A stretch of 64,000 nt of DNA from Vreelandella halophila (GTDB lineage Bacteria > Pseudomonadota > Gammaproteobacteria > Pseudomonadales > Oleiphilaceae): contig NZ_JACHUZ010000013.1 in NCBI RefSeq assembly GCF_019903425.1, forward strand, positions 2,548,361 to 2,612,360, written 5' to 3'. Below are positions 41,670 to 46,930 of this stretch, in pieces (within the stretch, counting starts at the first letter, position 1; every line of letters starts with the position of its first letter). Under the pieces are notes generated by a model. That model worked only from the letters and a program-made list of their open reading frames with translations. It made no database searches and was not told the DNA's origin. The position numbers and the translations under genes are program-made.

Positions 41670-42794
41670 CTAGCGCTGGTAACCGGGGCGCAGGAAGGGC
41701 ATCGCCGAGACCGTCATGCTGCGGCGCTTACCCCGCACATCCGCCTCAACGGTGGTGCCCTTCTCTGCCAGATCCGCACGCACATACCCCATCGCAATGG
41801 GCGCGCCCACGCTCGCGGCAAAGTTGCCACTGGTTACTTCCCCGATGGGCTCCTCGCCACCCTCGGCATAGAGAACCGCGCCTTCGCGCACCGGCGCCTT
41901 GCCCTCGGCTACCAAGCCAACGCGCTTGCGTTCGAGCGACCCTTCGCGCATCTGGGCAAGGACCCGCTGGGCGCCGGGGAACCCCCCTTCGCGCTCACCA
42001 CCGAGCCGGCGTGGCTTGCCGATGGCCCATCCGAGGGAGGCTTCGACCGGGGTGGTGCGAGTGGTGATGTCATGGCCGTAAAGGCAGAGCCCGGCCTCAA
42101 GACGCAGTGAATCGCGGGCGCCCAGCCCCACCGGCTCCACATTCTCGTCCTCGAGCAGGCGGCGGACCAGGGTTTCCGCGACGTCGGAAGGCACGGAAAT
42201 CTCGTAACCATCCTCGCCGGTGTAGCCGCTGCGGGAAATGATCGCGGGGCTGTCGAGCAGCGTCATGGGGCGGTTGTCCATGAATTTCATCTCCCGCACT
42301 TCCGGCTGCAGTTTCGCCAGTGCCTCCTCGGCTTTCGGACCCTGAAGGGCGATCAGCGCCCTGTCGGCCATCTCGGTCAGCGTAATGGAGGCCGGCAGGC
42401 CGGCGCGCAGGTGGGCAATGTCCTCGGCCTTGCAGGCCGCGTTGACCACCAGGTAGAAGCCTTCCTCATGGCGGCTGATCATCAGGTCGTCCAGGACGCC
42501 CCCGTTCTCGTTGGTGAACAGGCCGTAACGCTGCCGGTTCACGCCCAGCCCGACCAGGTCGGCCGGCACCATGGCTTCCAGCGCCTCGGCAATGCCCTCG
42601 CCGCTGAGCCAGACCTGCCCCATGTGCGAGACATCAAAAAGCCCCGCCGCTTCCCGGGTGTGCAGGTGCTCCTGCTTGATCCCGGTCGGGTACTGTACCG
42701 GCATGCTGTACCCGGCGAAGGGCACCATTCGCGCGCCCAGTTCCTCGTGAAGGGCCGTCAGCGGGGTTGTGAGCATTGCCTGATCATTCGCCAT
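41670..42794 (-). CDS. gcvT: Glycine cleavage system aminomethyltransferase (T protein)
   Basis: 374 residues from the ATG at 42794, with AGGAGAGAC upstream; longer readings run into the leader. Motifs: GARMVPFAGYSMPVQYP, LFDVSHMGQVWLSG, RSGYTGEDGYEISVP, GLGARDSLRLEAGLCLYG, and a C-terminal barrel with GEVTSGNFA. It transfers the methylene group from the H-protein aminomethyl-lipoate to tetrahydrofolate. Its leader carries a TTTCC-N4-GGAAA palindrome shared with the gcvH promoter region. The regulator gene lies directly upstream in the same direction. Confidence 0.96.
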   Translation of the reverse strand: MANDQAMLTTPLTALHEELGARMVPFAGYSMPVQYPTGIKQEHLHTREAAGLFDVSHMGQVWLSGEGIAEALEAMVPADLVGLGVNRQRYGLFTNENGGVLDDLMISRHEEGFYLVVNAACKAEDIAHLRAGLPASITLTEMADRALIALQGPKAEEALAKLQPEVREMKFMDNRPMTLLDSPAIISRSGYTGEDGYEISVPSDVAETLVRRLLEDENVEPVGLGARDSLRLEAGLCLYGHDITTRTTPVEASLGWAIGKPRRLGGEREGGFPGAQRVLAQMREGSLERKRVGLVAEGKAPVREGAVLYAEGGEEPIGEVTSGNFAASVGAPIAMGYVRADLAEKGTTVEADVRGKRRSMTVSAMPFLRPGYQR

Positions 42795-42875
42795 GAGCCT
42801 GTCTCTCCTGTTCCTGTTTCCTGATTTTCTGTTTTGCCTGTTCCGGCTTGAACGGATGATACCCATGGTGCCGCA

Positions 42876-42899
42876 TTTCCGATCGGAAACAAAGTTTCC
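42876..42899. promoter_or_regulatory. TTTCC-N4-GGAAA palindrome upstream of gcvT
   Basis: TTTCCGATCGGAAA (42876-42889) is a perfect 14-base palindrome. GGAAAC-AAA-GTTTCC (42885-42899) overlaps it as a second inverted repeat, giving three half-sites in series. It lies 82 bases upstream of the gcvT start and 3 bases after the regulator's stop. The same motif occurs upstream of gcvH at 43548, so it is a candidate operator for the XRE-cupin regulator. Confidence 0.6.
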
Positions 42900-42901
42900 C
42901 G

Positions 42902-43537
42902 TCAGGCGGTAACCCAGAGCACTTCCGCGTCCTCTTCGCTCGTGGAAACCAGCATGTGGCCCATGGTGCAGTCGTAGTAGGCGCTGTCCCCGGCCTCCAG
43001 GCGGACCGGCTCGTAGAACTCGGTGTAGAACAGGATGGCGCCGCTGAGCACGTACAGGAACTCTTCGCCGTCGTGACGGATCCACTCCGGGAAATCCTCA
43101 AACGCCCGCGCACGTACCCTTGTTGTAAAGGGCACCATTTTCTTGTGGCTCAGGTCCGTGGCCAGCAGCTCGTGCTCGTAGGTGGCCGTCGGATGCGGCC
43201 GGCCCTCGCCCCGGCGCGTGATGTCCCGCCGGCCGGAGGGCTGGGCGCTGTTGCTGGGCTCGGTGAACAGCTGGGGCAGGTCGATCCCCAGCCCCGTCAC
43301 AAGCTTGTTCACGACCGAGAAGGTGGGGGAGATCTGCTCGTTCTCGATCTTGGACAGTGTGGAACGCGCCAGCCCCGTCAGCTTGCTGGCCTCCTCCAGG
43401 GTCAGGTTCTGGCCCAGGCGCAGGGAGCGGACCCGCTCGCCCAGGCGCAACGGCTGCAGCGTGGCTTCGGTCTCGCCGTGCTGGACCTGGAGGGTTTCAT
43501 GGAGCGGTTCACGCATGTTGTCGCTGTCCTGGGGCAT
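42902..43537 (-). CDS. XRE-family regulator with C-terminal cupin domain
   Basis: 211 residues. N-terminal HTH_3 (LGERVRSLRLGQNLTLEEASK with LARSTLSKIENEQISPT; cited in parts) at about 32-85, then a cupin sensor domain from about 125 (HDGEEFLYVLSG, LEAGDSAYYDCTMGH). Such proteins usually sense a small metabolite through the cupin pocket. It lies between gcvT and divergent gcvH, and matching palindromes flank it. It is therefore a likely regulator of glycine cleavage; glycine, serine or a methyl donor is the probable signal. In Vibrio gcv loci a Cro/CI-type regulator sits in a similar place. Confidence 0.85.
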   Translation of the reverse strand: MPQDSDNMREPLHETLQVQHGETEATLQPLRLGERVRSLRLGQNLTLEEASKLTGLARSTLSKIENEQISPTFSVVNKLVTGLGIDLPQLFTEPSNSAQPSGRRDITRRGEGRPHPTATYEHELLATDLSHKKMVPFTTRVRARAFEDFPEWIRHDGEEFLYVLSGAILFYTEFYEPVRLEAGDSAYYDCTMGHMLVSTSEEDAEVLWVTA

Positions 43538-43547
43538 GATTCGCGTG

Positions 43548-43561
43548 TTTCCTATAGGAAA
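43548..43561. promoter_or_regulatory. TTTCC-N4-GGAAA palindrome between regulator and gcvH
   Basis: TTTCCTATAGGAAA is a perfect 14-base palindrome centred 17 bases upstream of the regulator start and just upstream of the predicted gcvH -35 element. It has the same half-sites and 4-base spacer as the site upstream of gcvT. A lone GGGAAAA half-site follows at 43576. Expected effects are autorepression of the regulator and control of gcvHP. Confidence 0.6.
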
Positions 43562-43567
43562 TTTACG

Positions 43568-43596
43568 TTGTTTGTGGGAAAATCCGTTGTTAATCT
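43568..43596 (+). promoter_or_regulatory. Candidate gcvHP promoter
   Basis: -35 TTGTTT (43568-43573), 17-base spacer, -10 TAATCT (43591-43596). It would give a leader of about 40 bases before gcvH. The palindrome at 43548-43561 abuts its upstream edge, a position that suits either activation or repression from the upstream side. Confidence 0.5.
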
Positions 43597-43644
43597 AACA
43601 CACACAAAACCACAACCCCATGACCCCCGCAGGAGGATGGAGCG

Positions 43645-44037
43645 ATGACAGCGACGCCTGAGGAACTTCTCTACACCCCAAGCCACGAATGGATCCGTGA
43701 CAACGGCGACGGCACCGTGACCATGGGCATCACCGACCACGCCCAGGATCAGCTCGGCGATGTTGTCTTCGTGGAACTGCCCGAAGCCGACCAGAGCTTT
43801 GCCAAGGGCGATGAACTCGCGGTTGTGGAATCCGTCAAGTCGGCCTCCGACATCTACTCCCCCATCAGCGGCACCGTCGAGAGCGTCAACGAAGCCCTCG
43901 AAGATGCCCCCGAGACAGTGAACGAACACTGCTACGGGGACGGCTGGATGGTCCGCATCAAGCTGGACAACCCGGACGAACTCTCCGAACTCCTCACGGC
44001 CGAGCGCTATCAGGAGCTCGTCGCCGACGAAGCCTGA
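43645..44037 (+). CDS. gcvH: Glycine cleavage system H protein
   Basis: 130 residues. The lipoyl-lysine is K65 in [14 protein letters not shown], the classic H-protein motif, after a [17 protein letters not shown] start. It shuttles the aminomethyl group between P, T and L proteins. AGGAGG lies 8 bases upstream. gcvP starts 16 bases downstream, giving a gcvHP operon divergent from regulator and gcvT. No lpd gene is nearby; the L protein must come from elsewhere. Confidence 0.97.
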
Positions 44038-44053
44038 CCCAGGAGGTATCCCC

Positions 44054-46930
<2,877 letters not shown>

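Follow-up and report, generated by a model that had tools for sequence, protein, structure and literature searches.

A predicted XRE-cupin operator at the glycine cleavage genes of Vreelandella halophila and its relatives

Introduction

The glycine cleavage system supplies the pools of pyruvate and one-carbon units, and osmolyte breakdown may expose marine and halophilic bacteria to abundant glycine. In a 64-kb stretch of Vreelandella halophila DNA (the window), the gene of a putative regulator, here called REG, lies between gcvT and gcvHP, and a short palindrome stands on either side of it. Are these palindromes operators, which protein reads them, and what would it control? A preliminary description of this DNA proposed a shared, protein-based operator that couples gcvT and gcvHP. 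We compared the locus with those of relatives that keep REG and of relatives that lack it, and the comparison indicates that the two palindromes are very probably the sites through which REG controls glycine breakdown.

Results

REG is encoded on the minus strand at 42902–43537 and is 211 amino acids long; its true start may be later, since many homologues align only from residue 8–24. An N-terminal HTH_3 and a C-terminal Cupin_2 domain were matched and no other families, an architecture that marks REG as an XRE-cupin transcription factor, as had been proposed, and a predicted palindromic operator lies beside its own gene, as in other members of this class. PuuR (NF007408), the best NCBIfam match, was rejected as an identity because its score of 49.8 bits falls short of the 211-bit cut-off, and the match covers the HTH part only. 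The recognition-helix sequence TGLARSTLSKIEN is present in all 81 REG proteins (from 80 related loci and the window) and is directly followed by EQISPTF in 80 of them. A structure model of REG has a mean pLDDT of 71.1, with residues 1–28 below 50, and for this reason we argue no ligand pocket from it.

The proposed target gcvT (41670–42794, minus strand; GCV_T and GCV_T_C domains) lies on the downstream side of REG, and gcvH (43645–44037, plus strand; GCV_H) and gcvP (44054–46930, plus strand; GDC-P and GcvP2_C), also proposed targets and probably sharing one operon, lie on the other side and run divergently from REG. The TTTCC-N4-GGAAA palindromes are where they had been placed, neither assigned to a strand: TTTCCGATCGGAAA at 42876–42889 is a predicted operator in the gcvT leader that is kept upstream of gcvT in relatives, and TTTCCTATAGGAAA at 43548–43561 is a predicted operator between REG and gcvHP that is likewise kept. 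Their coordinates thus flank REG, one on the gcvT side and the other on the gcvH side. The two sites had been called identical, which holds for the half-sites and the length of the spacer but not for its letters, which differ. A second inverted repeat, GGAAAC-AAA-GTTTCC, does overlap the gcvT-leader palindrome (42885–42899, no strand assigned), but it is not a general feature: a GGAAA within 12 bases before the gcvT-side site occurs at 6 of 38 such sites (L019–L022, of the window's genus, L023 and L090), so that few sites outside the genus have the extra half-site.

Exact matches to TTTCC-N4-GGAAA number two in the window, with no others; the mean in shuffled windows is 0.05, and two were reached in none of 100 shuffles. 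With at most one mismatch there are four matches against 1.08 expected. The whole 3.5-Mb genome holds nine exact matches against two for the reversed pattern, and three of the nine have an AT-centred core, namely both gcv sites and a third that precedes a porin gene. The other six, which lack the AT core, lie within mechanically called reading frames, some of which may not be genes, and show that single matches do arise by chance. That the gcv palindromes are themselves chance inverted repeats has next to no probability in our view, given the 0.05 expected in the window and the retention of a site with at most one mismatch in every gcv-linked locus described below; this conservation already rules out a chance origin.

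The third AT-core palindrome of the genome, TTTCCAATTGGAAA (G000:C13:478846-478859; L003 1501–1514), lies between Porin_4 and MatE genes, 245 bp upstream of the former. It is kept by the same genes in two genomes of the same genus (L207, L209) and differs in Halospina (L206), and it is a possible third target of REG.

The conservation of the sites was assessed in the best 80 of 357 confirmed REG relatives, with gcv neighbours called by tblastn; by this measure 50 REG loci are gcv-linked and 30 are unlinked. The preliminary description would be undermined by orthologous loci that keep the regulator and lack the palindrome. We looked for such loci among the 50 that are gcv-linked and found that all carry the site with at most one mismatch, 44 exactly and 6 with one mismatch, although these loci are not independent of one another. 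Exact sites number 70 in the 501 kb of the linked loci and none in the 297 kb of the 30 unlinked loci, whereas ten control palindromes or spacings gave 0–2 matches in the former and none in the latter. An altered recognition helix as the cause of the 30 unlinked REG copies is ruled out, since the helix is the same.

The 70 exact sites comprise 38 between REG and gcvT, which in some loci precede a gene for an AGCS symporter, 30 upstream of REG, and two (L023, L024) that precede sdaA by 111 and 124 bp. Counted by locus, REG is flanked by exact sites on both sides in 24 of the 50; another 14 have them solely toward gcvT, 6 solely upstream of REG, and 6 have no exact site. The last group (L031, L093, L094, L096, L097, L098) all have a one-mismatch site, which by our own arithmetic would occur by chance about 0.001 times in 500 bp. 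In seven loci (L029, L074, L083, L094, L096, L097, L098) one side of REG is without a site at up to two mismatches, the sides examined being the 500 bp before REG and the interval between REG and gcvT (800 bp if gcvT is distant or absent). The core consensus is TTTCC-(T/A/G)AT(T/A/C)-GGAAA, which is often accompanied by another half-site 20–21 bp away, and the middle two spacer bases are AT in 70 of 70 sites. The commonest forms are TTTCCTATTGGAAA (40 sites) and TTTCCTATAGGAAA (17 sites); the GATC-spacer form of the window is a rarer one.

The predicted operator also follows REG where REG has parted from gcv. Of the 30 REG loci without gcv neighbours we traced 17 to their genomes, and 13 of these contain exact AT-core sites elsewhere; in 11 of the 13, the first site fetched adjoins gcv, sdaA or AGCS. 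In one of the other two, from Neptunomonas marina, a palindrome (L204 4701–4714) lies directly upstream of a gene read by eye as formate-tetrahydrofolate ligase (fhs-like), a target that, if true, would tie the regulon to one-carbon metabolism. In the last of the 13, G338, one of the four sites shares coordinates with L142, 182 bp before sdaA. The remaining four of the 17 genomes, all Neptuniibacter, are without an exact site, and matches with one mismatch are about as frequent in them as in the reversed-pattern control. In three of them no sdaA match was found and in the fourth there is a fragment at a contig end, which suggests that targets may be missing from these genomes.

Second REG copies (L030, L033, L043, L044 and similar loci) have an identical recognition helix, lie away from gcv and adjoin a gene for a two-domain response regulator. 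In four genomes the second REG copy is without any exact operator.

We extended the comparison to an order-wide set of 293 genomes, of which 52 have REG (a match at E<=1e-40) and 241 do not; two of the 17 traced genomes are also in this set (the coordinates of G338 and G339 are those of G195 and G043). An AT-core site occurs in 41 of the 52 genomes with REG and 41 of the 241 without (Fisher 1.7e-17, with related genomes counted as independent). When 30 site loci were fetched, 11 of the 14 from genomes with REG lay beside target genes as against none of the 16 from genomes without it, and in further stretches from genomes with REG (L129–L131, L135–L137, L139) sites occupy glyA/gcvT and AGCS/gcvH intergenic regions away from REG. 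The other 3 of the 14 have the palindrome away from known targets, and we make no claim for the AT-core sites away from known targets, some of them inside reading frames, in seven further stretches from genomes with REG (L132–L134, L138, L141, L143 and L146).

It was also found that gcvH is present in 57 of 58 relatives, and 30 of its loci were compared. All 23 gcvH loci from relatives that lack REG are free of the site (none in 77 kb). Seven of the 30 gcvH loci came from genomes with REG; five of these, from the window's genus, have two sites each, and L154 and L158 have none. Taken with the 50 of 50 gcv-linked loci that retain it, this distribution supports the earlier proposal of a shared, protein-based operator that may couple gcvT and gcvHP. 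The regulon had been pictured as local, and the sites do flank REG, but they are not only local, since they are found in trans beside sdaA, glyA and the AGCS symporter gene and once beside the fhs-like gene. In the window's own genome no match to sdaA was found, and the best AGCS locus has no site.

It is conceivable, if improbable, that the palindromes serve another regulator encoded elsewhere and that REG just accompanies the gcv cluster. Eleven of the 52 genomes with REG are without an exact AT-core site, as this explanation would allow; when eight of the eleven were searched at one mismatch, the matches listed included sites within 250 bp upstream of REG in G037, G113 and G171. Against it, REG and the site co-occur even where REG is unlinked from gcv, the site is missing from every gcvH locus of REG-less relatives, and 30 of the 50 linked loci have it in front of the REG gene as well, an arrangement that resembles autoregulation.

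The position of the palindromes relative to predicted promoters differs between targets. A strict consensus scan of 42700–43700 found no promoter and no terminator, and the promoter positions given here therefore rest on conservation. Read by eye, the layout toward sdaA and gcvH is palindrome, about 6 bp, -35, 17 bp, -10, which places the palindrome upstream of the predicted -35 with its centre at about -48; toward gcvT and AGCS the palindrome comes last, 2 bp past a -10 that follows the -35 by 17 bp, and the gcvT-facing palindrome coincides with the predicted start site. In a profile of promoter offsets that excludes hexamers overlapping the palindrome, which confound it, the best offset was +20 at the 43 sdaA-facing sites (z 2.8) and -31 at the 55 gcvT-facing sites (z 4.3); the 15 AGCS-facing sites gave a tie between -31 and -38 (z 3.3). 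The strands that face REG peak at -32 (32 sites, z 3.9). For gcvH (14 sites) +20 was second best only, and for glyA (7 sites) it lay outside the best four. Promoters scored in both directions at sites between REG and sdaA, so that the palindrome may there sit at the start of REG itself, and promoter assignment at these sites is ambiguous.

The gcvHP side of the window fits the sdaA/gcvH layout, with its elements in the expected order on the plus strand: a predicted -35, TTGTTT (43568–43573), 6 bp past the palindrome and in the same place in relatives; an extra GGAAA half-site (43577–43581) between -35 and -10, 20 bp from the half-site of the palindrome; and a -10, TAATCT (43591–43596), predicted from the layout of relatives. 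The gcvT side of the window has no good promoter at the conserved offset, only a weak one. The extra half-site corresponds to an enrichment of TTTCC/GGAAA-like half-sites at a shift of 20–21 bp in sites that face sdaA (mean match 3.09/5 against a background of 1.3); at this distance AGCS-facing sites give 2.93/5 against 1.41, and the gcvT side is weak (2.15/5 at shift 20 against 1.31, and 2.11 at shift 31). Predicted operators also occur in side-by-side pairs, 156–161 bp apart in all six of the traced genomes that have them (G333, G329, G334, G326, G336, G332).

An RNA-based control was considered as well. In other bacteria the glycine riboswitch, an RNA element, governs gcv and symporter genes. 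An Rfam search of the window found two tRNAs only, in agreement with the earlier statement that no glycine riboswitch is present, and a glycine riboswitch was rejected for want of any Rfam match to it in the window or in 14 related loci searched together. A SAM-I/IV riboswitch (L066 7887–7993) lies close to the gcv genes in Marinobacterium nitratireducens. Both palindromes are perfect inverted repeats and could in principle work as RNA hairpins or as DNA structures and not as protein sites. We regard this as very improbable: the stem would be 5 bp, longer only if spacer bases pair as well, and lacks a U run, Rfam gives no family at the sites, 42700–43700 holds no terminator, and the sdaA-side site, upstream of its predicted -35, would not be transcribed from that promoter.

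The window's gcvP is 72–74% identical to those of Natronospirillum and Saccharospirillum loci, and its gcvT is 68% identical to that of Natronospirillum. Both are only about 35–37% identical to their counterparts in the 3.4-kb gcvH loci of relatives without REG, in which gcvP is partial; gcvH does not discriminate, with 63% identity in L155. REG was not found in the 32 genomes of the same family outside the genus. The gcv-REG cassette (41670–46930) may have been acquired horizontally.

Discussion

We consider it likely, from comparative sequence evidence, that REG is a dimeric XRE-cupin repressor of a glycine-catabolism regulon, acting through TTTCC-NATN-GGAAA and released by glycine or a close metabolite. 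A REG dimer would bind this sequence through its HTH domain, and its regulon would consist of gcvT and gcvHP in the window organism, with glyA, sdaA, the AGCS alanine/glycine:Na+ symporter and perhaps fhs in relatives. Repression is the mode that we infer as most likely, because the XRE-cupin factors of P. aeruginosa whose regulons have been defined, seven in number, all repress, according to the parts of PMC7901475 that describe them, and because the palindrome lies at the predicted gcvT start site. One dimer may occupy the palindrome and make a second, weaker and presumably cooperative contact on the half-site 20–21 bp away in the -35/-10 spacer, and the two contacts together would exclude RNA polymerase. 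Since the putative targets make up the route from glycine through serine to pyruvate together with an alanine/glycine-family symporter, the cupin domain may bind glycine or a close metabolite such as serine or a one-carbon signal, and plentiful glycine would then release the repressor.

The mirror-image placement of the operator leaves room for a dual-sign mode. It is possible, though we think it unlikely, that REG activates, or that it has opposite signs at its targets, activating gcvHP and sdaA from upstream of the -35 and repressing gcvT, AGCS and itself at the start. The palindromes facing sdaA favor the position upstream of -35 by 31 to 6 of 43 sites (6 ties), and those facing gcvT favor the start site by 39 to 9 of 55 (7 ties); an activator could also act from upstream of the -35 at sdaA and gcvH sites, and GcsR, the regulator of a gcv-glyA-sdaA operon in P. 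aeruginosa, activates, as sections of PMC4894688 report. On the other hand, opposite signs for the subunits of one enzyme would make little physiological sense, on the sdaA and AGCS sides a further half-site falls within the promoter spacer, as suits exclusion of the polymerase, and the P. aeruginosa XRE-cupin factors characterized in the relevant parts of PMC7901475 repress. Repression by REG remains our preferred reading.

More speculatively, one asymmetric operator, composed of the palindrome and a half-site two helical turns away, the extra half-site falling in the promoter spacer, might be used in mirror image at gcvHP and sdaA as compared with gcvT and AGCS. This would let a single XRE-cupin glycine sensor draw different responses from the two halves of the pathway, either activation then repression or different thresholds, and the gcvPH-REG-gcvT cassette might move between lineages as a self-regulated unit. 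We offer this as a conjecture and consider it unlikely.

A predicted regulator, an exact operator and a set of targets spread over many genera make control of this pathway directly testable. Regulators of the XRE-cupin kind are known; for the glycine pathway and this operator we found no report in a search of full-text open-licence papers.

How does REG compare with known systems? The binding site of E. coli GcvA/GcvR differs from the REG palindrome. GcvA/GcvR is likewise a protein control of gcv, by a LysR-type activator and the GcvR repressor, as passages of PMC4894688 describe. GcsR of P. aeruginosa is closest in its targets: by the account in parts of PMC4894688 it is glycine-responsive and serves the same gene set, gcvH2-gcvP2-glyA2-sdaA-gcvT2, and the proposed targets of REG amount to this glycine-induced set plus the symporter. 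In contrast to REG, GcsR is a TyrR-like enhancer-binding activator, an unrelated protein with the site TGTAACG-N4-CGTTCCG (same parts of PMC4894688). GcsR-type control was rejected for the REG locus, as REG matches HTH and cupin families only and its palindrome is unlike that site as given there. In protein type REG instead resembles ErfA, PsdR, PauR, PA0535, PA1359, PA1884 and PA4987, the seven P. aeruginosa XRE-cupin repressors with defined regulons, which in the portions of PMC7901475 devoted to them also combine an HTH and a cupin domain, a palindromic site and a gene beside the target; the REG regulon is predicted to lie partly in trans, as that of PauR does by the same account. These Pseudomonas inhibitors differ in pathway, and glycine, gcv, serine and TTTCC are absent from the main text of PMC7901475. 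If our reading is true, an XRE-cupin route joins those of GcvA/GcvR, GcsR and the riboswitch, with unrelated regulators acting on the same gene set.
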